64,000 nucleotides of DNA from Hyphomicrobiales bacterium. Its GTDB lineage: Bacteria; Pseudomonadota; Alphaproteobacteria; Rhizobiales; Rhizobiaceae. Below, in pieces: positions 5,351 through 24,703 of this stretch. Under the pieces are notes generated by a model. The model was not told the origin of the DNA. It saw only the letters and a program-made list of their open reading frames with translations, and did not search any database. Position 1 is the first letter of the stretch. Each line of letters starts with the position of its first letter. Position numbers and translations under genes: made by a program. The stretch spans positions 124,001-188,000 of the forward strand of contig UEGQ01000010.1 in the NCBI GenBank assembly GCA_900466005.1, in the 5' to 3' direction.

Positions 5351-6508
5351 ATGACCGACGGACCCGTTCGACGCCGACGCTTCCCGCCTGAAAACCGCTT
5401 CCCCTTCTTTCATCCCATCCTTGCCGGCGCGACGCTGCGCGAGCGCCTGCTCGCCTGCGTCGGCGCGCTGCTCGCGACCACACTCACCGGCTTCATCTGC
5501 GGGGCGCTGCTCGGACCCGATTCGCATCTGCCGCTGATCGTCGCGCCGATCGGCGCGTCCGCGGTCATTCTCTTCGTCGTTCCCTCGAGCCCGCTCGGAC
5601 AGCCCTGGTCGGTCATCGGCGGCAACGTCATTTCGGCCATGGTCGGGCTCACCGTCGCGCAAATGGTGCCGGAGCCCGTTCTTGCGACTGGGATTGCCGC
5701 GGCACTTGCGATCGCCGCGATGTCGCTCACCCGCTCGCTCCATCCGCCCGGCGGCGCCGTCGCCATGACGGCGGTGCTCGGCAATGCCGCGCTCGCCAAA
5801 TGGGGCTATCTCTATCCCTTCATTCCGGTCGGGCTGAATTCCTGCCTGCTGGTCGGCCTCGCCTTCCTCTTCCATAGGGCGACCGGCCGCGCCTATCCGC
5901 ATGTCGCAGCACCCCGCCCGGTGAACAGCCACGAGACCCGCGACCTGCCGCCGCCCGTCCGCGTCGGTTTCCGCGAGGAGGACATCGATGCGGCGCTCGC
6001 CGTCCTCGACGAGACCTTCGACATCGACCGCGGGGACCTCGAACGCCTGCTGAAACAGGTCGAGCTGGAGGCGACGATCCGCGCGCACGGCCCGCTCTCC
6101 TGCGGCGACATCATGTCCCGCGATGTCGTCACCCTCGGCGACAGGGCCTCGCCGGACGAGGCACGCCAGCTGCTCCTGCATCACAACATCCGCACGCTGC
6201 CGGTCACCGGCGAGAACGGCCGACTGCTCGGCACCGTCGGTCTCAGGGAACTCGCCCATGCCGACAAGGAGATCTCCGGCGTCATCTCCGCCGCGGCGAC
6301 CGCCGCCGTCGATGATCCGGCGCTCGGCTTGCTGCCGCTCCTGACCGACGGACGCACCCATGCCGTCGTCATTGTCGACTGCGACCGCCACATCACGGGG
6401 CTGATTTCGCAGACCGATCTGCTTGCGGCACTCGCCCGGACCTTGCCCGATAGGGGCGAGCATGCGAGCTTCGCGATTGCGCCGCCGGTGCTGGTCGCGG
6501 CGCAGTAG
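5351..6508 (+). CDS. HPP-family membrane protein with C-terminal CBS pair
   Basis: Protein of 385 residues. The first about 180 contain four or more hydrophobic segments and the family motif SLHPPGGAVAM, with the PLIVAPIGASAVILFVVPSSPLGQPW signature in the N-terminal half. After a hydrophilic linker (about 190-235) come two CBS modules (from CGDIMSRDVVTLGD and from GVISAAATAAVDDPAL), which usually bind adenine nucleotides and gate transport. HPP proteins of the chloroplast envelope have been linked to nitrite transport; the bacterial CBS fusions are uncharacterised. Its place next to the nos cluster makes a role in nitrite or N-oxide handling attractive but unproven. Confidence 0.85.
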   Translation: MTDGPVRRRRFPPENRFPFFHPILAGATLRERLLACVGALLATTLTGFICGALLGPDSHLPLIVAPIGASAVILFVVPSSPLGQPWSVIGGNVISAMVGLTVAQMVPEPVLATGIAAALAIAAMSLTRSLHPPGGAVAMTAVLGNAALAKWGYLYPFIPVGLNSCLLVGLAFLFHRATGRAYPHVAAPRPVNSHETRDLPPPVRVGFREEDIDAALAVLDETFDIDRGDLERLLKQVELEATIRAHGPLSCGDIMSRDVVTLGDRASPDEARQLLLHHNIRTLPVTGENGRLLGTVGLRELAHADKEISGVISAAATAAVDDPALGLLPLLTDGRTHAVVIVDCDRHITGLISQTDLLAALARTLPDRGEHASFAIAPPVLVAAQ

Positions 6509-6523
6509 GACGGGAGCCGGGCG

Positions 6524-6814
6524 ATGAAGATCGAACGCGATGCGAAGGGAGATTTTCTCGTCGATTCCGCCGAGATCGCCGGCCGGTTCGGCCTTTCGGA
6601 AGAGGATTTCCGTCAGCGCATGCGCCACGGGCTCGTCAAGAGCACGGTGGAGGTCGGCGAGGGCGAGGATGCCGGCACCCGCCGCCTGAGCCTTCGCCTC
6701 GGCAACCGCGTCTGGCGGGCGATCCTCGACGGCGAGGACCGCGTGGTCCGGGAGGGTGTTTCCTTCGTCCGTGGCGAGCTCCTGCGCCGTCCGGAGTCCG
6801 GCGGGCAGGAGTGA
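6524..6814 (+). CDS. DUF6522-family protein (96 aa)
   Basis: Small soluble protein starting MKIERDAKGDFLVDSAEIAGRFGLSEEDFRQRM and containing a GTRRLSLRLGNRVWRAILD segment, the conserved layout of DUF6522 proteins. Function is unknown. It begins 16 bp after the HPP-CBS gene, so the two probably form an operon, and it ends 17 bp before the convergent nosX stop. Family members recur beside nitrogen-oxide genes in alphaproteobacteria as far as I recall; here that is context, not proof. Confidence 0.7.
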   Translation: MKIERDAKGDFLVDSAEIAGRFGLSEEDFRQRMRHGLVKSTVEVGEGEDAGTRRLSLRLGNRVWRAILDGEDRVVREGVSFVRGELLRRPESGGQE

Positions 6815-6830
6815 CACGCCAGCCCTTGCG

Positions 6831-7835
6831 TCAGAGCGGGCGGCCGAAACGGAAGTGCCTTCCGTCCGCCGTCGTGAGGTCGACGGTCATCTCGGGTGCG
6901 GCCGTCGCCACTGCCCGGATATCCTCCTGCTTCATCAGGCTGAAGGCGGTCGAGAAGGCGTCGGCCACCGTCGCCGACGGTGCCACCACGCTCATGCGGC
7001 GATAGAGCGGCGGCACCGCGCCCTGTCGCGGATCGAGAATATGGCCGAAGCGTCCGGACGGATCGAAATGAAAGCCCGAGGCGCTGGAGGTCGCGACCGC
7101 CCTGTCGATCACCGGCAGGACGGTGTCCACCCGTTCCCCCGTCTCGGTTTCGGCAAGTCCGATCCGCCACGGGCTGCCGTCGGCCCTGGCGCCGATCGCA
7201 CGGCTCTCGCCCATCTCCACCAGGCTGCTGGTCACGCCGGCATCGCGCAGGAGGGCAACGACCCGGTCGGTGATGTAGCCCTGGGCAATGCCGTTCAGGG
7301 TGAGCGCCATGCCGGCCTTTGCGAAGGCGATGCGGTCGCCGTTGAAGCGTACACCATCGAAGCCGACCATGGAGAGCGCCTGCGTGAGCGCCCTGCTGTC
7401 CGGCCCGGAGGGATCGGCTCCGAGGGCCTGGAAGTGGCGCGCATAGAGCATCCAGAGCGGCTGCACGGTCGGGTCGAAGGCGCCGCCGGTCGTCTCCCAG
7501 GCGGTCCGGCAATGGCCGAGCAGGTCCACGAGATCGGCGGGCGGCGCCGCGAGTGCCCCCATGCGGTTGAGCTCGGAGAGGCCGGAGTCGGCGCGGTAGA
7601 GGCTGAAAATCGTCTCCAGCCGGCGAACCTCGGCGACGACGCGGGCGACGAGCGCCTCCGCCTCCGCCTTGTCGTGATGACTGAGGATCAGGGTCGCCGG
7701 TGCGCCGAGCGCCTGCCCCTGCCATATGACGGGGTCTGTCGCCGCGTGCGCACGGCCGGCGAAGGGAATGAGGGGGAGCCCGGCGACGGCGGCCATGATG
7801 GTCAGCGCCCGGCGGCGGTCGAAAGCCTCAGCCAT
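6831..7835 (-). CDS. nosX: NosX, ApbE-like FMN transferase for NosR
   Basis: Periplasmic flavin transferase of 334 residues in the ApbE family, needed to attach FMN covalently to NosR and so sustain N2O reduction. The N-terminus has a Tat-like signal (DRRRALTIMAAVAGLPLIPFA, cleavage near residue 30). The ApbE core is visible in ETIFSLYRADSGLSELNRMG, GAFDPTVQPLW, ALTLNGIAQGYITDRV and the metal/FMN segment YRRMSVVAPSATVADAFSTA. The start at 7835 overlaps nosL by 8 bp. It is the last gene of nosRZDFYLX, the order seen in rhizobia. Confidence 0.95.
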   Translation of the reverse strand: MAEAFDRRRALTIMAAVAGLPLIPFAGRAHAATDPVIWQGQALGAPATLILSHHDKAEAEALVARVVAEVRRLETIFSLYRADSGLSELNRMGALAAPPADLVDLLGHCRTAWETTGGAFDPTVQPLWMLYARHFQALGADPSGPDSRALTQALSMVGFDGVRFNGDRIAFAKAGMALTLNGIAQGYITDRVVALLRDAGVTSSLVEMGESRAIGARADGSPWRIGLAETETGERVDTVLPVIDRAVATSSASGFHFDPSGRFGHILDPRQGAVPPLYRRMSVVAPSATVADAFSTAFSLMKQEDIRAVATAAPEMTVDLTTADGRHFRFGRPL

Positions 7836-15776: not shown

Positions 15777-15790
15777 TTGATTCAAATCAA
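15777..15790. promoter_or_regulatory. FNR/NnrR-type box between nosR and the ferritin-like gene
   Basis: TTGATTCAAATCAA is a perfect 5-bp inverted repeat with a 4-bp spacer, the pattern bound by FNR, FixK and NnrR/DNR regulators. It lies 71 bp before the nosR ATG and 87 bp before the divergent gene at 15877, so one site may serve both directions. Which regulator binds is inference; nnrR is encoded in this window. Confidence 0.8.
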
Positions 15791-15876
15791 CTATAACAGA
15801 TGTATCTTTTAATCATAGTTCGAAAGCCGACCCGAGGGGCGCTTCCGTCCCTGTCGCGATGAGGAGAACCGTTGAG

Positions 15877-16731
15877 ATGAACAGCTGGAGCAATACCGAG
15901 GAACCGTGGGCCCTATCCTCCATGGGCGAGTTGCTGGCGCTTGCCCGCGCGATGGAAAAGGAGGCGATCGACGGCTATCTGGCGCTTGCCGAGCGCATGC
16001 GTGCCGAGGGGCGTCCGGACCTCGCCGAGGTCTTCGACCGGCTGACCGCGGAGGAGCGCGGCCATCTCGGCAATGTCGATCGCTGGGTCGAAGCGAGGTA
16101 TGAAACGGTGCCGCCGGCTGCTTCCCTGCCGGAACCGCTGTTCGACGACGAAGGGGCGGCTCTCGTCGCGCCGGAGCTTCTCAATTCCTACCGCGCCTTC
16201 TCGATGGCGGTGCGCAACGAGGAGCGCGCCTTTGTCTTCTGGACATACGTCGCGGCCCATGCCCCGAGCGACGAGATCCGCGAGGCCGCGGAGAGGATGG
16301 CGATGGAGGAGCTCGGCCATGTCGCGACGCTCAGGCGCGAGCGGCGGCGGGCCTTCCACCAGCTCCGCCGGATCGAGACCGATTGCAGCCCGGGCGATCT
16401 CGCCACGCTCGAAATGCGGCTCGCCGACCATCTGGAGAGCCGGGCAGCCCTTGCCGGCGGCGAGCGTGGCGAGCGGTTGCGCGCCTTCGCCCGCGACGCC
16501 CAGGCGCGGGCGGCGCATCTCGCACGCACGCCACCGCCCGAGACGCCGATCCTCGAGCGGGTGCCGGACACGGTCCGCGACCGGCTGGTGCCGCTCTGCG
16601 AACTCATTCTCGACGCCTATCTCGATCTCGCCGAACGCAGCAAGCCCGAGGAGGAGCGCATCCGCGCGCAGGCCTTCGCCGGCGCCGTCGTCCAGTGTCT
16701 GCTGGTGGTCCGCGGCCTGCAGTCCCACTGA
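15877..16731 (+). CDS. Ferritin-like (rubrerythrin-type) diiron protein, 284 aa
   Basis: Four-helix-bundle protein with the full ferritin-like metal pattern: E27/E29 (MEKEAIDGY), E60-x-x-H63 (AEERGHL), E115/E116 (NEERAFVFW) and E145-x-x-H148 (MEELGHV). A third helical region (about 170-284) follows and contains two cysteines. The ATG at 15877 is preferred over 15859 because GAGGAG lies 10 nt upstream. No rubredoxin domain is present, so it is not a classical rubrerythrin. It is divergent from nosR and shares its FNR-type box, suggesting co-expression under denitrifying conditions. A role in iron, NO or peroxide handling is inference. Confidence 0.8.
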   Translation: MNSWSNTEEPWALSSMGELLALARAMEKEAIDGYLALAERMRAEGRPDLAEVFDRLTAEERGHLGNVDRWVEARYETVPPAASLPEPLFDDEGAALVAPELLNSYRAFSMAVRNEERAFVFWTYVAAHAPSDEIREAAERMAMEELGHVATLRRERRRAFHQLRRIETDCSPGDLATLEMRLADHLESRAALAGGERGERLRAFARDAQARAAHLARTPPPETPILERVPDTVRDRLVPLCELILDAYLDLAERSKPEEERIRAQAFAGAVVQCLLVVRGLQSH

Positions 16732-16756: not shown

Positions 16757-16770
16757 TTGCGTTTCGACAA
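16757..16770 (+). promoter_or_regulatory. Candidate NnrR-type box before the DUF2249 operon
   Basis: TTGCGTTTCGACAA has the TTG-N8-CAA layout of FNR/NnrR sites, though the right arm (GACAA) is not a perfect complement of the left. It lies 106 bp before the DUF2249 start at 16876. The left arm TTGCG is the same as in the pseudoazurin upstream box. Confidence 0.5.
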
Positions 16771-16875
16771 CTTGGCGGCGGCCGCCTTGGCCTAGGTTCG
16801 GACATGCCCGGAAGCGCGTCGGCCGCCGCCTGCCGGGACGGACCCTCGGGCGGCCGAAGCACACAAGGAATGCCC

Positions 16876-17157
16876 ATGTCAGACGCAATCTCCAAACCGC
16901 AAATCGATGTCCGCACCATCCCGCCGCATCTGCGCCATCCGGCGATCTTCGAGATGGTCGGTTCGCTGAAGCTCGGCCAATCCTTCATCGTCGTCGCCGA
17001 CCATGCGCCCCGGCCGCTGCATTACCATCTCGAGACCCGTTACCCCGGGCAGTTCTCCTGGGACTACATCGAGGAAGGTCCGGAGGTCTGGCGCGTCGAG
17101 ATCGGTCGCGTCAACGCGCATGTCGAGGACCACGTCTGCACCTGCGGCGGCCACTGA
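16876..17157 (+). CDS. DUF2249 protein, single domain (93 aa)
   Basis: Small soluble protein with a DUF2249 fold (TusA-like). It carries QIDVRTIPPHLRHPAIFEMVGSLKLGQ, then HAPRPLHYHLETRYPGQFSWDYIEEGPEVWRVEIGR, and ends in a C-x-C-x2-H tail (CTCGGH) that could bind metal. The ATG at 16876 has AAGGA 6 nt upstream; an ATG at 16870 abuts that site and is less likely. It heads an operon with a 12-helix membrane protein, a tandem DUF2249 protein and a DUF59 protein. DUF2249 genes recur in denitrification loci but have no assigned biochemical role. Confidence 0.85.
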   Translation: MSDAISKPQIDVRTIPPHLRHPAIFEMVGSLKLGQSFIVVADHAPRPLHYHLETRYPGQFSWDYIEEGPEVWRVEIGRVNAHVEDHVCTCGGH

Positions 17158-17198
17158 AGGCCGGCGCTGAACATTGCCGTTTTCGGGGTGAGGTCGAA

Positions 17199-18578
17199 AT
17201 GCCCGGTACAACACTGTCCCGCTGGACCATGTCCTTCTTCGCCACGGCGCTCTCCTTCCTCATCGGCGGGGAGGTCATGATGGCGCTCGGCTACGGTTTT
17301 CCGTCCGCCGATATCGCCGCTCCGGAAACGCTGCTTCTCGTGCACGTCGTCGCCATCGGCTGGCTCTCGCTGCTGATGGCGGGCGCGCTCCTGCAGTTCG
17401 TCCCCGTTCTCGTCGCCCGTCCGCTCTGCGGAGAACGCTTCGCCCTGCCGGCGCTGGTGCTGATCGTCACCGGCCTTTTTGCGTTGCTCTTCGGCTTTGC
17501 CGATCTTTCCGGCGGTGGCGGCTGGGTGAGCCTTGCGCTGCCCACGGGCGCCTTGCTGCTCGCCGCCGGTTTTTCCACCCTTGTCGGCATCCTCGCCGTC
17601 ACGCTCTGGCGGGCGCGGCCGCTGCCGCTTCCCGCCCGCTTCGTCGCGGTCGGCCTTGCCGCACTCGCCGTGACCACGCTGCTCGGCGGCTGCTTCGCCC
17701 TGACGCTTGCCGGGATCGCGACGGACGGCGCGATGGCCGGGCTCGTGGTGAGCGGGGTTCCGCTGCACGCGATCCTCGGTCTCGCCGGCTGGCTGAGCTT
17801 CACCGCCGTCGGCGTCAGCTACCGGCTGCTGCCGATGTTCATGCTGTCGCCGGAAAAGGAAAAGTGCACGAACCGCTTCGTGCTCGGCGCCGGAGGCCTC
17901 GCACTGCTTCTGGTGGCGGCCGCAGCACCGGCAGCGATCGCCTGGGAGGCGGGCATGGCCGGCATGCTGGTTGCGGCCCTGCTCCTTGGCCTCGCCGCCA
18001 TTGCGGTCTACGGTGGCGATGCCGTCGAAATCTATCGCAGGCGCAAGCGCAGGACCATGGAACTCAACAGCCGCATGACGATCGTCGCGCTGGCCGGCCT
18101 TCTCGCCACCGTCCCGCTCTCCGCGGGCGCCGTCTTCCTCGGCCTTTCGGAGGCGCTCATCGGCGCGCTGGTCTTCCTCGCGGCCTTCGGCTGGCTGACC
18201 TTTCTCGGCCTCGCCCAGCTCTACAAGATCATTCCCTTCATGACCTGGCTCGAATGCTACGGTCCGGTGCTCGGCCGGGCGCCCACCCCACGGGTGCAGG
18301 ATCTCGTCGACGAGCGCAATGCCGTCGCCTGGTTCGCGCTCTTCGGCGGCAGCGTCGCGGTCGCGACGCTTGCGATCCTCTTCTCCCATGCCGGTCTCTT
18401 CCGGATCGCGGCCGTCGGTCTGCTTATCGCGACGATCGGCCTCGTTTGCGAATTCGCGCTTGCCCGCCGGCTCGCGCACGTCTCGTCCGCCCTGCGCCAC
18501 CCGCAGGGCGCCGTCCGTCCCAATCTCTTCCTTCCCCACATGCCCCGAGGAGGTCACCATGGCCCTGCCGCCCTATGA
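17199..18578 (+). CDS. 12-helix membrane protein with threefold internal repeat, denitrification-associated
   Basis: Very hydrophobic 459-residue protein with about 12 predicted helices. Three copies of a G-W-L/T...P helix are spaced about 140 residues apart: GWLSLLMAGALLQFVPVL (54-71), GWLSFTAVGVSYRLLPMF (197-214) and GWLTFLGLAQLYKIIPFM (331-348). The W-to-P distance is 14 in all three. Conserved histidines H49 and H190 precede the first two, a pattern reminiscent of haem-bearing helices in NnrS and CcoN-like proteins, but the full oxidase ligand set is not evident. The start at 17199 is 41 bp after the DUF2249 gene. Function unknown; a haem-binding or NO-related role is inference. Confidence 0.75.
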   Translation: MPGTTLSRWTMSFFATALSFLIGGEVMMALGYGFPSADIAAPETLLLVHVVAIGWLSLLMAGALLQFVPVLVARPLCGERFALPALVLIVTGLFALLFGFADLSGGGGWVSLALPTGALLLAAGFSTLVGILAVTLWRARPLPLPARFVAVGLAALAVTTLLGGCFALTLAGIATDGAMAGLVVSGVPLHAILGLAGWLSFTAVGVSYRLLPMFMLSPEKEKCTNRFVLGAGGLALLLVAAAAPAAIAWEAGMAGMLVAALLLGLAAIAVYGGDAVEIYRRRKRRTMELNSRMTIVALAGLLATVPLSAGAVFLGLSEALIGALVFLAAFGWLTFLGLAQLYKIIPFMTWLECYGPVLGRAPTPRVQDLVDERNAVAWFALFGGSVAVATLAILFSHAGLFRIAAVGLLIATIGLVCEFALARRLAHVSSALRHPQGAVRPNLFLPHMPRGGHHGPAAL

Positions 18579-19077
18579 ACTCGATGTCCGCCCGATCCTG
18601 AAGAACGGCGGCGAACCCTTCCAGGCCATCATGCAGGCCGTCCAGTCGCTCGGGGCCGGGCAGTCGTTGCGCCTTCTTGCGACCTTCCGGCCGGTGCCGC
18701 TGTTCCAGGTCATGGCCGGCCGCGGCTACGACCATATCGATCGTGAAATCGACGGCGGCGACTGGGAGGTGCTGTTCACGCCCAAGGTCGGCGCATCCGA
18801 CGCCGACGTTTCCGAGGACGCCGACGAACCGGCGGTCTGGCCGGAGCCCGAACGCTATCTTGATCTCGCCGATCTCGATCCGCCGGAGCCGATGGTGCGC
18901 GTGCTCGCCGCCACGGAGAAGATGGAGCCGGGCGAGGTGCTCTTCGCGCTGCTCTCGCGCGAGCCGGTCTTCCTGTTTCCGGAGCTGAAGAAGCGTGGCC
19001 ACCAGTGGGCCGGAAATCTGAGTGAAGACGGCGCGGTCTATCGCCTCCTCGTTCGCATCGGCCCGAGGCCGGAGTGA
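18559..19077 (+). CDS. Tandem DUF2249 protein (172 aa)
   Basis: Contains two DUF2249-like halves: residues about 5-70 (YELDVRPILKNGGEPFQAIMQAVQSLGAGQ ... VMAGRGYDHIDREIDGGDWEVLF) and about 98-170 (YLDLADLDPPEPMVRVLAATEKMEPGEV ... LKKRGHQWAGNLSEDGAVYRLLVR). They are joined by an acidic linker. No TusA-type catalytic cysteine is visible in either half. The ATG at 18559 follows GAGGAGGT and overlaps the membrane protein gene by 20 bp, so translation is coupled. Together with the 93-residue protein the operon encodes three DUF2249 units. Confidence 0.82.
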   Translation: MALPPYELDVRPILKNGGEPFQAIMQAVQSLGAGQSLRLLATFRPVPLFQVMAGRGYDHIDREIDGGDWEVLFTPKVGASDADVSEDADEPAVWPEPERYLDLADLDPPEPMVRVLAATEKMEPGEVLFALLSREPVFLFPELKKRGHQWAGNLSEDGAVYRLLVRIGPRPE

Positions 19078-19082
19078 CGGTC

Positions 19083-19403
19083 ATGGCGAACCTTGCCACC
19101 GTAGACAGTGACCGCATCGCGCTGCTGATCGACGAGCGCCTGCGCACGGTGATCGATCCGGAACTCGGCGAGAACATCGTCGACCTCGGCCTGATCTACG
19201 GAATCGTCGTCTCGCCCTCGGGTGCCGTGCGCGTGACGATGACGACGACGACGAAGGGATGCCCCGCGACGAGCTTCCTCACGGGGGCGGTCGAGGCCTG
19301 CGTGCGCGGTGTCGATGGCGTCCGCAGTGTCGAGATCGACCTCACCTACGAGCCGCCGTGGTCGCCGGACCTGATGGCGAGTGCCGCGGCGATGCGATTC
19401 TGA
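19083..19403 (+). CDS. DUF59 / MIP18-family metal-sulfur cluster assembly factor
   Basis: Protein of about 106 residues with the MIP18 fold. The key segments are VIDPELGENIVDLGLIYGIVV and the cysteine motif TTKGCPATSFL, as in SufT/PaaD-like factors that help deliver Fe-S clusters. The ATG at 19083 has GGAG 8 nt upstream; a GTG at 19074 overlapping the previous stop is an alternative start. It is the last gene of the DUF2249 operon and converges on the nsrR-like gene 13 bp away. Its presence suggests that a client of this operon carries an Fe-S or other metal-sulfur site. Confidence 0.85.
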   Translation: MANLATVDSDRIALLIDERLRTVIDPELGENIVDLGLIYGIVVSPSGAVRVTMTTTTKGCPATSFLTGAVEACVRGVDGVRSVEIDLTYEPPWSPDLMASAAAMRF

Positions 19404-19416
19404 GCGACGGTCTGAT

Positions 19417-19845
19417 TCAGGCGGCCCGGACGATGCCGAAGTCTTCCGGCCGCAACGCGAGGTCCGCGAGCGTGTAGCGGTCGAGCACGGCAAGGAAGGC
19501 CTCCAGCGCCTCGCCGAGCACGCCCTTCAGCCGGCAGGGCGCGCTGATCCTGCACTTGTTGCCGCTGGCGAAGCATTCGACCATGGCAAAATCGGTTTCC
19601 GTCACCCGCACCAGCGCGCCGAGCCGGATCTCTTCCGGCGGGCGGGCGAGCCGCAAGCCGCCGGTCCGTCCGCGCACAGCTTCCAGAAAGCCCTGTCGCG
19701 TCAGAAGGTTCGCGACCTTCATCAGATGGGCGCGGGAAATGTCGTAGGCGTTGGCGGTCTCCTCGATGGTGACCAGCCGGTCGGGGTGGGCGGCCGCCAT
19801 CATCATCAGCCGCATCGAATAGTCGGAAAAGGTCGTCAGTTGCAT
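19417..19845 (-). CDS. nsrR: Rrf2-family regulator, NsrR-like NO sensor
   Basis: Winged-helix repressor of 142 residues. The HTH is in TIEETANAYDISRAHLMKVANLLTRQGFLEAVRGRTGG. Three cysteines (C91, C98, C104 in CFASGNKCRISAPC) match the [4Fe-4S] ligands of NsrR, which is disabled by NO. The N-terminal MQLTTFSDYSMRLMM is also NsrR-like. An inverted repeat lies upstream. Location beside nirK, nnrS and the DUF2249 operon fits NO-responsive control. IscR or RirA are less likely because of the cysteine spacing. Confidence 0.85.
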   Translation of the reverse strand: MQLTTFSDYSMRLMMMAAAHPDRLVTIEETANAYDISRAHLMKVANLLTRQGFLEAVRGRTGGLRLARPPEEIRLGALVRVTETDFAMVECFASGNKCRISAPCRLKGVLGEALEAFLAVLDRYTLADLALRPEDFGIVRAA

Positions 19846-20114: not shown

Positions 20115-21338
20115 CTAGCAGGAGGCGAGCGGCGTCCGCCTGACGGCGAGCAGCATCGGCCCATGTTCGAAAAGGAAGAGGCCGAAGGCGACGATCCAGG
20201 CGAGGCCGGCCGCCGCGAGCATCGGCTCGTAGAGATCCGGCATGAGGTCGGCGAGCGGCCGCAGGACAGCCGCGACGATCAGTGAGAGATAGGAGAGCGC
20301 CGTCGTCGTCGAGGCGCTGAGCTGGCGGCCGGTATGCCCGCGGGTCACGCGGGTGATGACCGCGAGCATCATCACGCCGATCGCCCCGACGGTCAGGATG
20401 TGCAGCACCGAGAAGTCGTCGATGAGGCCCGTTGCGCCGAGCGCGATGCCGAGGAAGCCGAGCGGCACGAAGGCGTAGCCGACATGCAGGATGATGAGCA
20501 GTTTCTCCGCCCGGGTTTCCCAGCCCCGCCAGCGGGAGAGGCGGGCGACGTGCAGGCCGGCGGCGAGTGCCGCGGCAACTGCCGTCACCGGATGGGACGG
20601 CTCGAAAATCCACGCCGCCAACGCCAGACCTCCGAAGGTGATCGCGACACTGTCGAAGCGGTTGAACGGCACCGGAAAGACGGTCCGGCCCGCCTTGTTC
20701 AGCCAGTTGCGGGTGAAGCTCGGCACGATCCGGCCGCCGATGATCATGATCAGCATCACATAGGCCGAGACGGCGAGGCGATCGGCGAAGCCGTCGTGGA
20801 CGCCGATGATCACCATCCGGTGGAAGAAGATGTTGGCGAGCGTGAGGGCGGCAAGGCCGCCGAGCACCTTGAGGTCGCGCCACTTGCGGCCGGCGATGAT
20901 CTCGCGGCCGTTGATGAAGAGGAGGGCCGGCAGGAAGAGCGCGTCGATAGTGGCGGAGACCGGCACGCCGAGGAGATCGGGCGCGAGCATGGCGAGCCGC
21001 CCGGCGACCCAGATCGAGAACAGGATGATGAGCGGCCGCCCCGAAACCGGCAGGCGTCCGGTCCAGTTCGGCACGGCGGTCATCAGGAAGCCGGCGAGCA
21101 CCGCGGGCGCGAAGCCGAAGAGCATCTCGTGTGCGTGCCAGTGCGGTGCGCCGTAGTCGCCGCCGATCGGCCAGCCGAATGCCAGCGCGCCGATCCAGAG
21201 CGCCATCGCCGCGACGGCCCAGACACCGGCGCCGAGAAAGAAGGGCCGGAAGCCGTAGGAAAAGAGGACAGGGCCGGTCTGCGCCAGCCCGCGCGGCACG
21301 GCGCGGCCGGTGCGGGGCTCGTGGGGAATGTCGTTCAT
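20115..21338 (-). CDS. nnrS: NnrS-family haem-copper membrane protein
   Basis: Polytopic membrane protein of 407 residues with about 12 helices. NnrS proteins bind haem and copper and protect against nitrosative stress during denitrification. Family motifs are FSYGFRPFFLGAGVWA near the N-terminus, WHAHEMLFGFAPAVLAGFLMTAVPNWTG (residues about 67-94), GGRIVPSFTRNWL, and LHILTVGAIGVMMLAVITRVTRGHTGR. The start is divergent from nirK with a perfect FNR-type box between them, so both are likely activated by NnrR. Confidence 0.95.
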   Translation of the reverse strand: MNDIPHEPRTGRAVPRGLAQTGPVLFSYGFRPFFLGAGVWAVAAMALWIGALAFGWPIGGDYGAPHWHAHEMLFGFAPAVLAGFLMTAVPNWTGRLPVSGRPLIILFSIWVAGRLAMLAPDLLGVPVSATIDALFLPALLFINGREIIAGRKWRDLKVLGGLAALTLANIFFHRMVIIGVHDGFADRLAVSAYVMLIMIIGGRIVPSFTRNWLNKAGRTVFPVPFNRFDSVAITFGGLALAAWIFEPSHPVTAVAAALAAGLHVARLSRWRGWETRAEKLLIILHVGYAFVPLGFLGIALGATGLIDDFSVLHILTVGAIGVMMLAVITRVTRGHTGRQLSASTTTALSYLSLIVAAVLRPLADLMPDLYEPMLAAAGLAWIVAFGLFLFEHGPMLLAVRRTPLASC

Positions 21339-21440: not shown

Positions 21441-21654
21441 TCGCCCTGCAGCGATGCATGGGAAATATTGTCGCACCTGAAATAAAGGACAAGTCGAAAT
21501 GATAAGCGGTAAAGTCTTTATTCCGGCAACATAAAGCAATGATTGCGACTATTCAAATATGTTTGCTTTGCAGCAAAGAAGGCGTCGGGGAAGCGTTTTA
21601 AGAAAGGTCATGGCCGGGCGGAAAGCGTCGCGGCAGTTTTCAAGGAGAACGAAG

Positions 21655-22788
21655 ATGACCGACCAGTTTCAACTTTCGCGCCGCGCCGTTTTGGCTGGTG
21701 CGGCTTTGACGGGCGCTGTCGGCACGCTGATCGCCAATGGTACGGTCGCGCGCGCCAACCAGCCGGCGCCGAAGCTCTCGGCAGCCGACATCGCCGCCCT
21801 GCCGCGGGTCAAGGCCGAGCTCGTCGCGCCGCCCTTCGTTCACGCCCATACCCAGAAGGCCGAGGGCGGCCCGAAGATCGTCGAGTTCACGATGACGATC
21901 GAGGAAAAGAAGCTCGTCATCGACGACCAGGGCACCGAGGTTCAGGCCATGACCTTCAACGGTTCGGTTCCCGGCCCGCTGATGGTCGTCCACGAAGGCG
22001 ACTACGTCGAGCTCACCCTCATCAACCCGGAAACCAATACGCTTCAGCACAATATCGACTTCCATGCCGCCACCGGCGCACTGGGCGGCGGTGCGCTGAC
22101 CGAGATCAATCCGGGCGAAAGCACAATCCTGCGCTTCAAGGCGACCCGCGCCGGCGTCTTCGTCTACCACTGCGCACCTCCCGGAATGGTTCCGTGGCAC
22201 GTCACCTCGGGCATGAACGGCGCCATCATGGTGCTGCCGCGCGACGGCCTGAAGGACGCCAAGGGCAACGACATCACTTACGACAAGGTCTACTACGTCG
22301 GCGAACAGGACTTCTATGTCCCGCGTGACGAGAAGGGCAACTTCAAGAAGTACGAAAGCCCCGGCGACGCCTATGTCGATACGCTGGAAGTCATGCGCAA
22401 GCTGACCCCGAGCCATGTCGTCTTCAACGGTGCCGTCGGCGCGTTGACCGGCGACAAGGCGATGACGGCAGCCGTCGGCGAACGGGTTCTGATCGTCCAC
22501 TCGCAGGCGAACCGCGACACCCGTCCGCACCTGATCGGCGGCCATGGTGATTATGTCTGGGCGGGCGGCAAGTTCAACAACCCGCCGGATGTCGATCAGG
22601 AAACCTGGTTCATCCCGGGCGGTGCGGCCGCAGCGGCGCTCTACACCTTCCTGCAGCCGGGCATCTACGCCTACGTCAACCACAACCTCATCGAGGCCTT
22701 CGAGCTCGGTGCCGCCGCCCACTTCAAGGTTACCGGCGAGTGGAACGACGACCTGATGACGTCGGTCAAGCCGGGCGCGTCGATCTGA
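21655..22788 (+). CDS. nirK: Copper-containing nitrite reductase NirK
   Basis: Periplasmic trimeric enzyme (377 residues) reducing nitrite to NO. A Tat signal is present ([16 protein letters not shown]). Type 1 Cu ligands are H132, C173, H182 and M187; type 2 ligands are H137 and H172, with a third His in the C-terminal domain ([12 protein letters not shown]). Two cupredoxin domains and the family length are intact. The ATG at 21655 is preceded by AAGGAG; in-frame upstream codons lack such a site. nirV follows 79 bp later. Confidence 0.98.
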
Positions 22789-23782: not shown

Positions 23783-23951
23783 TCCGCGCGTGCGGTCTCC
23801 CCGTTCTCGCCCTGCGACAAAGCGTCCACGGCCCCGTGTCGCAAAGGCGTTGAAAACCGGAGAGAAAGACTCCGAAAATCGCCGCCGCGGCTTTGCCCCC
23901 CTTCCCGATACGGGTATAACGGTCGAAAGTTATCCACCGTTCGAGGATACC

Positions 23952-24650
23952 GTGGCTGCCATAGACCGGACACTCGTCAGGTCGCTTTCGCTCTTCGAGA
24001 AGATGGGCGATGCGGACCTGGACAAGCTTCTCGCCTTCGCCAACTCCCGCCGCGTCCCGCAAGGGGAGTCGGTGTTCGAGCAGGGCGATGCGGCGACCCA
24101 CTTCTATCTGCTGCTGCACGGTCGGCTGAAGGTGATGCAGGTCACCCCGGACGGCCAGCAGATCATCGTCAGGGTGGTCCATCCCGGCGATCTCTTCGGC
24201 TTCGCCAAGGCGCTGAGGCGGAGCGACTATCCGGGCACGGCCGTCGCCGCCGCGGAATCGATCGTGCTCGCCTGGGCGACTGATCTATGGCCGGTCTTCG
24301 TGGAACAGAATCCCGACCTTGCCGTCAGTGCCATGCAGACGATCGGTGAAAGGCTCGAGGAAGCACATACCCGCCTGCGCGAGATGTCGACCGAGGAGGT
24401 CGAACGCCGCGTCGCCCATACGGTCTTGCGGCTCACCAAGCGGGCCGGCAAGCCGGAGGGCGGCGGCATCCGCATCGACTTCCAGATCTCCCGCCAGGAC
24501 ATCGCCGAGATGACCGGAACCACCCTGCACACCGTCTCCCGCATCTTGAGCGGCTGGGAGTCCCGCGGCCTCGTCGAAGGCGGCCGCCAGCGCCTCGTGG
24601 TGCTCGATCCGCAGAAGCTGGCGCAACTTGCCGAGGGCCGGGACAAGTAG
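23952..24650 (+). CDS. nnrR: NnrR, Crp/Fnr-family nitrogen-oxide regulator
   Basis: Transcription activator of about 232 residues. The N-terminal cyclic-nucleotide-binding-like beta-barrel (VPQGESVFEQGDAATHFYLLLHGRLKVM) is followed by a dimer helix and an HTH (ISRQDIAEMTGTTLHTVSRILSGWESRGLVE). The FNR cluster cysteines are absent, as in NnrR/DNR, which respond to NO. The GTG at 23952 gives MAAIDRTLVRSLSLFEKMGDADLDK, like known NnrR N-termini, with GAGGA upstream; an ATG at 23790 would add 54 residues of no family likeness. It probably acts at the boxes at 15777, 16757, 21427 and 24704. Confidence 0.92.
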   Translation: MAAIDRTLVRSLSLFEKMGDADLDKLLAFANSRRVPQGESVFEQGDAATHFYLLLHGRLKVMQVTPDGQQIIVRVVHPGDLFGFAKALRRSDYPGTAVAAAESIVLAWATDLWPVFVEQNPDLAVSAMQTIGERLEEAHTRLREMSTEEVERRVAHTVLRLTKRAGKPEGGGIRIDFQISRQDIAEMTGTTLHTVSRILSGWESRGLVEGGRQRLVVLDPQKLAQLAEGRDK

Positions 24651-24703
24651 CGGCGCGCGTCTCTTCTTCTTGCCGAAAAAGATTCATCCTGAATGAATCT
24701 AAT

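Follow-up and report, generated by a model that had tools for sequence, protein, structure and literature searches.

We analyzed a window of 64,000 nucleotides from a Hyphomicrobiales bacterium (assembly GCA_900466005.1, contig UEGQ01000010.1, positions 124,001 to 188,000 of the forward strand), in which a cassette of four packed genes lies on the plus strand at 16876-19403, between nos genes and nirK. The cassette encodes the following proteins:

16876-17157, plus strand: DUF2249-A, 93 amino acids, a single DUF2249 domain (PF10006, E 4.6e-27).
17199-18578, plus strand: HCOH membrane protein, 459 amino acids, haem-copper-oxidase fold with invariant H49 in transmembrane helix 2 (TM2) and H190 in TM6.
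18559-19077, plus strand: DUF2249-B, the tandem protein, 172 amino acids, a DUF2249 unit and behind it a TusA-fold unit that lacks the TusA cysteine (PF10006, E 1.7e-32; PF01206).
19083-19403, plus strand: DUF59/SufT-like protein, 106 amino acids (PF01883, E 2.9e-18).

An initial annotation of this DNA had described four genes with overlapping or short junctions, encoding three DUF2249 units, a 12-helix membrane protein and a metal-sulfur factor, and this description held. The open reading frames (ORFs) were confirmed, with a 41-base gap between the DUF2249-A and membrane protein genes, a 20-base overlap between the membrane protein and tandem genes and, if the DUF59 gene starts at an alternative GTG at 19074, a 4-base overlap at the last junction. 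The three PF10006 units scored 94, 62 and 53 bits and were the only ones found in this genome.

The membrane protein matched no family in Pfam or NCBIfam and no PDB sequence at E up to 10, whether searched as a single protein or as a profile. Neither the NnrS family (PF05940) nor, at E up to 1, the COX1 family (PF00115) matched it, and among 22 relatives PF00115 matched two, weakly (best E 6e-4). An AlphaFold model built from 22 sequences showed twelve transmembrane-length helices (mean pLDDT 86.4, pTM 0.88). Foldseek ranked cbb3 oxidase and the nitric oxide (NO) reductase cNOR as its best matches, followed by bo3 and ba3 oxidases (best E 2.8e-5, TM-scores of about 0.6-0.7), and VIA-align superposed it over nearly its whole length on the catalytic subunits CcoN (Z 33.5, root-mean-square deviation (rmsd) 3.3, 395 residues) and NorB of cNOR (Z 32.5, rmsd 3.8, 392 residues); these fold alignments, like those of the tandem protein, cover only the families listed. 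The fold predicted in this way is of a haem-binding type, in support of the initial annotation, which had suggested looking for haem or copper in the protein. Furthermore, the three thirds of the sequence aligned pairwise over 127-129 columns (E 1.1e-5, 7.8e-8 and 5.9e-6; reversed controls 0.012 or worse), which is what the threefold oxidase fold predicts, and a profile of 35 relatives matched a two-sequence oxidase alignment with an offset of one repeat (E 5.2e-5, probability 67%). Elsewhere in the same genome (contig C35 near 181 kb; 1378-1830 of locus L067), a 150-residue membrane-protein ORF with a weak PF00115 match (20.2 bits) is possibly a single-unit oxidase homologue.

Oxidases and NO reductases bind their metals through six histidines: one each in TM2 and TM6 and a pair each in TM7 and TM10. 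In an alignment of 81 homologue rows, which still contains four duplicate loci, H49 was a histidine in all 79 rows and H190 in all 80 rows reaching the respective column, and no other column exceeded 90% histidine. The window protein has no histidine in TM7 or TM10; position 352 is a histidine in the 28 distant rows and a glutamate in the 53 near ones. Thus, whereas CcoN and NorB carry the ligand set for a haem pair and CuB or FeB, the cassette protein keeps only the TM2 and TM6 histidines of the six and, judged from known oxidase chemistry, cannot form a binuclear center. As modelled, it is a complete haem-copper-oxidase fold without binuclear-center ligands. Superposed in sequence order, its two histidines should match the low-spin haem ligand of TM2 and a CuB ligand of TM6. 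Across the fold, they may instead face the third interface, where oxidases and NO reductases have no haem; the repeat alignment superposes H49 on H190, and the third repeat lacks a histidine at that place.

These features recall the HCOH proteins, which Pei et al. reportedly described in 2014 as having two conserved histidines and one haem and which may include the cassette family. The definition of these proteins, an oxidase fold with three repeats and two conserved histidines, describes the window protein, and the likeness extends to twelve helices, DUF2249 neighbours and a denitrification context. The DUF59 and Nfu_N components and the exchange of regulators described below are features of the present cassette.

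The oxidase fold could also mean that the cassette is an enzyme in its own right, with a single haem as the site at which NO or another nitrogen oxide is converted and with quinol, or partners of the polyferredoxin or ferredoxin type, as electron donor. Candidate partners do occur: in L087 a CcoG/FixG-type polyferredoxin gene (5782-7209) starts 9 bases after the cassette DUF59 gene, and in L092 genes for a cytochrome c and a [2Fe-2S] ferredoxin lie upstream of the cassette. However, each such partner was seen in one locus, the window protein lacks the TM7 and TM10 histidines, and among relatives only position 352 of the distant group offers a conserved one, so that we regard an enzyme of this kind as quite unlikely.

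Both DUF2249 proteins scored above the curated PF10006 cut-off of 29.5 bits (DUF2249-A 94.1, tandem protein 111.5). In DUF2249-A, R20-H21 and D42-H43 were invariant in an alignment of 15 sequences. Its cysteine-containing tail, HVCTCGGH, is possibly a metal site; several relatives have a similar tail (CDCCCGGH, for instance), whereas others lack it. The tandem protein was modelled as two small alpha/beta domains (pLDDT 84.5, pTM 0.46). The first found its best matches in IF3-type domains (Z at most 7.6), and the second, corresponding to the third DUF2249 unit, which also matches TusA by sequence (PF01206, E 2.5e-9), superposed on TusA with Z 11.2 (rmsd 2.0 over 74 residues). The catalytic cysteine of TusA sulfurtransferases sits in a CPxP motif; of 13 tandem proteins aligned, all 11 having the second unit show PPEP(M) at that place.

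The DUF59 protein scored 66.4 bits against PF01883 (cut-off 23.5), and the metal-sulfur assignment gains from its relatives: in 6 of 10 cassettes scanned (L013, L026, L089, L092, L111 and L123) the DUF59 protein carries an N-terminal Nfu_N domain. The cassette protein shares the DUF59 domain with SufT and, in six loci, the Nfu_N fusion with Nfu carriers. It differs in that it falls below the SufT-type cut-offs (TIGR02945, 89.9 of 143.4 bits; TIGR03406, 75.4 of 202.6) and in that the C-terminal cluster-binding Nfu domain was not among the matches in the cassettes scanned for Nfu_N.

We then compared 48 distinct related loci, chosen by similarity to the window membrane protein, so that the neighbourhood counts do not represent a random sample; four duplicates (L094, L117, L118 and L122, of L017, L011, L013 and L018) were left out, and the Sinorhizobium meliloti 1021 pSymA locus (L032), where the cassette lies near 687-690 kb and adjoins nnrS, hemN and nor genes, was read from its ORFs. 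All four genes occur in order in 38 of these loci, the last three in 9, some of which are cut by contig ends, and one locus breaks off inside the third gene. This conserved order favours the single unit that had been proposed for the genes. Nearly all of the loci are alpha-proteobacterial, two come from Burkholderiales, and 44 of the 48 have nirK, nnrS, nnrR, an Rrf2 gene or nosZ within the fetched stretch. A DUF2249 gene, in most cases one fused to hemerythrin, is also a frequent neighbour of homologues that are further removed (19-26% identity with the window protein along the alignment): PF10006 matched 19 and hemerythrin (PF01814) 16 of the 21 such neighbours aligned, and 10 of 31 distant loci fetched, some ending at contig ends, showed no DUF2249 neighbour. 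A hemerythrin gene also stands divergently beside the cassette in L114. Because distant homologues so often adjoin DUF2249 genes, the oxidase-like protein and DUF2249 look like an older core, with DUF59 belonging to the denitrifier-type cassette.

Control of the cassette by NO, which the initial annotation had proposed from a candidate NnrR box, is likewise suggested by the promoters:

16757-16770, plus strand: TTGCGTTTCGACAA, a candidate NnrR box at -119 relative to the start of DUF2249-A (p 0.045 in a comparison with 200 shuffles of 250 bp).

This box fits the consensus ctTTGcgnnnncgCAAag (PMC1274295), its 3' half differing from cgCAA at two bases. Scored with a matrix built from seven NnrR boxes of Bradyrhizobium given in passages of PMC6710368, an NnrR-type box at shuffle p ≤ 0.05 was present in 21 of 33 DUF2249-A promoters (L094, a duplicate, among them; p values uncorrected for 34 tests), and 19 of these boxes lie at -99 to -119, nearly the same distance as in the window. 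Seven loci (L010, L011, L020, L029, L087, L088 and L093) had no usable DUF2249-A promoter. The 12 promoters without a significant box form two sets. Seven have an Rrf2 gene beside the cassette (L007, L012, L013, L016, L026, L089 and L092), and in six of these a 23-base palindrome, AAGATATAT-TGACA-ATATATCTT, which resembles the NsrR operator, precedes the cassette; the seventh has a weak version, and L089 was judged by a weak NsrR-type site alone (13.0). The other set has five rows but, since L094 is a copy of L017, only four distinct loci (L008, L017, L032 and L096); their TTG-N8-CAA sites score lower on the matrix. The NsrR matrix was derived from five sites of the six loci that it then finds; outside that set it found a perfect palindrome before the cassette in L111 (44.7 bits), a site in L029, and, in L012 and L016, the same palindrome again, with the Rrf2 gene on one side and a gene for a quinol NO reductase (qNOR) on the other. 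L021 has an Rrf2 ORF in its fetched stretch, yet carries an NnrR-type box. A tree built from 50 rows calls for at least two changes to explain the NsrR type, with 13 of 47 inner branches left open and L123, whose promoter is cut off, labelled with the non-NsrR group. Promoters of some lineages hold NnrR-type boxes, those of others NsrR-type palindromes; one cassette thus appears connected with NO sensors of two unrelated kinds, namely an activator of the FNR family and an iron-sulfur (Fe-S) repressor. The Nfu_N-DUF59 fusion occurs in 5 of 8 NsrR-type loci, L007, L012 and L016 being those without it.

As side observations, weak NsrR-type sites lie in the window at 24679-24701, before the pseudoazurin gene, and at 15786-15808, between nosR and the gene that precedes the cassette (17.5 and 17.0 of a maximum of 34.8, compared to a best of 15.5 in 30 block-shuffled windows). 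In L111, a further NsrR-type site (26.3) lies at 16788 before a COX1-family gene resembling ccoN; the genome of L111 has the cassette, and no denitrification genes were found in it.

The variety of regulators bears on whether the cassette is itself a sensor, that is, a relay in which the membrane and DUF2249 proteins report NO or nitrite to regulators. Such a role has been proposed for DrpA and DrpB of Thermus, which, according to passages of PMC6282519, are a DUF2249 protein and a protein of one DUF1858 and two DUF2249 domains; their double deletion gave nitrate-independent nar expression. The single and tandem DUF2249 proteins in a nitrate-respiration operon are a likeness, and DUF1858 genes also lie near the cassette in L019, L022 and L088 (below cut-off in L010). 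However, drpAB as described in those passages is bicistronic, without an oxidase-like or DUF59 gene, no output domain was recognised in the cassette, the regulators differ between lineages while the cassette stays, and the Nfu_N-DUF59 fusions suit cofactor traffic better. We therefore consider a sensing relay unlikely.

To place the cassette among denitrifiers, we surveyed 397 genomes of the order, of which 21 carry the membrane protein, 87 nirK and 87 nosZ. nirK was present in 17 of the 21 carriers compared to 70 of 376 non-carriers (odds ratio 18.6, p 4.6e-9, in tests that count genomes sharing ancestry), and 10 of 13 carrier genera have nirK in a carrier. The expectation that the genes co-occur across denitrifiers thus stood as an enrichment with nirK; scattered occurrence outside denitrifiers, which the initial annotation had named as a refutation, was seen only to a mild degree, 4 of the 21 carriers in this one order being without nirK. 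Six genomic loci, namely the window, L011, L023, L024, L087 and L092, have nosR near the cassette, which, together with the TusA fold of the tandem protein, might point to a part in maturing the cofactors of NirK or NosZ, such as supplying sulfur to the copper-sulfur site of NosZ. However, the association with nosZ was weak (8 of 21 carriers, 79 of 376 non-carriers, p 0.098) and the tandem protein lacks the TusA cysteine; on these two grounds a helper of NosZ copper-sulfur assembly was rejected, and maturation of NirK or NosZ in general is very improbable.

NO reductase, in contrast to nirK, did not follow the cassette. cNorB was found in 10 of 21 carriers and in 27 of 58 nirK-positive non-carriers (p 1; 12 of 70 such non-carriers had been dropped, 5 for less than 90% completeness and 7 for nirK scores under 350 bits), and qNOR in none of the 21 carriers. 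At E 1e-50, neither cNorB nor qNOR was matched in 11 of the 21 carriers, 7 of them nirK-positive; the search covered these two kinds of NO reductase only, and one of the 11 assemblies (G043) is in 1,890 contigs. A helper of NO reductase, in assembly or electron supply, had been suggested for COG4309 in 2005, and electron delivery was among the roles proposed in the initial annotation. The shared palindrome before cassette and qNOR in L012 and L016 suits this role, as does the presence of cNorB within the fetched 18 kb in L115, L121, L122 and S. meliloti (L032). However, with NO reductase equally common with and without the cassette and cNorB and qNOR undetected in 11 of the 21 carriers, electron delivery to it is not supported as a general role, and help to NO reductase of any kind appears quite improbable. 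Nor, on the view favoured below, is the cassette itself an NO reductase. The idea that it might be the sole one was rejected, the window's own genome having norE-, norC-, norB- and norQ-like ORFs on another contig, as judged from a PF00115 match and from reading the ORFs by eye. Genome G326 has the cassette behind an NsrR-type palindrome and no match to nirK, nosZ, cNorB or qNOR, with only partial matches to PF02239; it points to NO defence over denitrification as such. NirS was sought through PF02239 in seven genomes, and the partial matches obtained, at most 29.3 bits, were read as not NirS. A second NirK-type match (323 bits) lies elsewhere in the window's own genome (G000:C20:40073-40957).

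The surroundings of the cassette in the window are those of a denitrification region, with nosL to nosR on the minus strand upstream and nnrS, nirK, nirV, nnrR and pseudoazurin downstream; nosL, nnrS and nirK were assigned from family matches and nosR, nirV, nnrR and pseudoazurin named by eye from ORFs. The features closest to it are:

15777-15790: perfect FNR-type box TTGATTCAAATCAA, recognised by sequence between nosR and the rubrerythrin-like gene.
15877-16731 (start 15877 or 15859), plus strand: rubrerythrin-like ferritin-fold protein (PF02915, E 4.7e-14), an optional upstream partner.
19417-19845, minus strand: Rrf2 regulator, NsrR- or RirA-like (PF02082, E 1e-33).
20115-21338, minus strand: NnrS (PF05940, E 5.8e-109).
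21559-22788, plus strand: ORF of nirK, copper nitrite reductase (TIGR02376, 551 bits), true start probably further in.
23790-24650, plus strand: ORF of a CRP/FNR-type regulator, probably nnrR, named by eye.

The rubrerythrin-like gene, absent from the initial annotation, directly precedes the cassette and has a relative in 5 of the 48 related loci, all five with nosR. On the NnrR matrix, TTGATTCAAATCAA is the best site in the gap between it and nosR, without significance (p 0.318). ORFs in related nirK clusters are 66-77% identical to the probable nnrR. The regulator gene beside the cassette had been named nsrR; its Rrf2 family stands, whereas both the NsrR model (123.3 of 182 bits) and the RirA model (127.2 of 193) stay below cut-off, so that nsrR is a likely, provisional name. 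Apart from the cassette, a DUF6522 gene (PF20132) at 6524-6811 adjoins a gene for an HPP/CBS membrane protein; Genes for DUF6522 occur close to the cassette in L011 and L095 as well, and in L029 one adjoins an NsrR-type site.

Our tentative preference is for an NO-induced module whose task is to protect or repair iron and Fe-S proteins in the manner of NnrS, a proposal that we hold only a little less probable than its opposite. It is favoured because an oxidase fold without an oxidase center is combined with NO-type control sites and with a link to nirK that is independent of NO reductase, because its partners come from Fe-S carriage and di-iron proteins accompany its relatives, and because of the published accounts of NnrS and SufT: NnrS is said, in passages of PMC9246220, to shield the iron pool from dinitrosyl-iron without removing NO, and SufT is described, in those of PMC8593673, as overlapping Nfu in Fe-S carriage. 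NO would relieve NsrR or activate NnrR and so induce the cassette; the membrane protein would bind one haem b near the periplasmic face via H49 and H190; the DUF2249 proteins would attach to it from the cytoplasm and connect it with the DUF59 carrier, in some species fused to Nfu_N; and the assembly would prevent the trapping of iron and Fe-S proteins as nitrosyl-iron or help to restore them. In a more specific form, the haem would sit at the third interface, held by TM2 and TM6, and serve to pass electrons or NO to a cytoplasmic DUF2249-DUF59 complex. This complex would free nitrosylated iron of its NO and reload Fe-S proteins, giving a dedicated membrane-linked denitrosylation system separate from NO reductases; in such detail the scheme is unlikely to be right.

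Several observations weigh against protection as the role of the cassette. NnrS is a 12-helix homologue of oxidases, a membrane protein of denitrification loci under NO control and a close neighbour in the window; it belongs, however, to a separate sequence family, and two profile comparisons with the cassette protein were weak (P 0.027 and 0.14, with partial alignments in different places), so that the words 'like NnrS' rest on context. The fold by itself does not establish haem; the two histidines may hold copper instead, or nothing. The DUF59 protein is under the curated sequence cut-offs of the SufT type, Nfu_N is missing from four of the ten cassettes scanned, and TusA-fold units lacking the cysteine might act as mere adaptors or sensors. 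The palindrome shared with the qNOR gene fits a helper of NO reductase too, the test of the link to nirK counts genomes of common ancestry, and with carriers making up just 21 of 397 genomes, most bearers of nirK have no cassette.

Parts of this picture have precedents. COG4309 corresponds to the DUF2249 family. Passages of PMC1274295 from 2005 put forward a role for it in the service of NO reductase. That DUF2249 is connected with denitrification or nitrate respiration is thus already published in that paper and, as far as passages of these sources go, in PMC6282519 (2018) and PMC11218638 (2024), the last of which cites Pei et al. 2014 for a link of DUF2249 to the oxidase superfamily. We found no open-licence paper describing the cassette with DUF59, its Nfu_N fusions or the exchange of NnrR for NsrR, its independence from NO reductase, the TM2/TM6 histidine pair, or DUF2249 together with NnrR.

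Nitrite reducers and denitrifiers must tolerate the NO they produce, and the known answers are NO reductases, flavohaemoglobin, NnrS and di-iron repair proteins. If the protective role is true, the cassette adds a separate layer of NO tolerance, found alongside nirK both where an NO reductase is detected and where none is, and could influence the leakage of NO and N2O. The DUF2249 family would thereby gain a place in the cell, and the cassette itself is a natural experiment in which an oxidase fold has been stripped of its catalytic center and reused.

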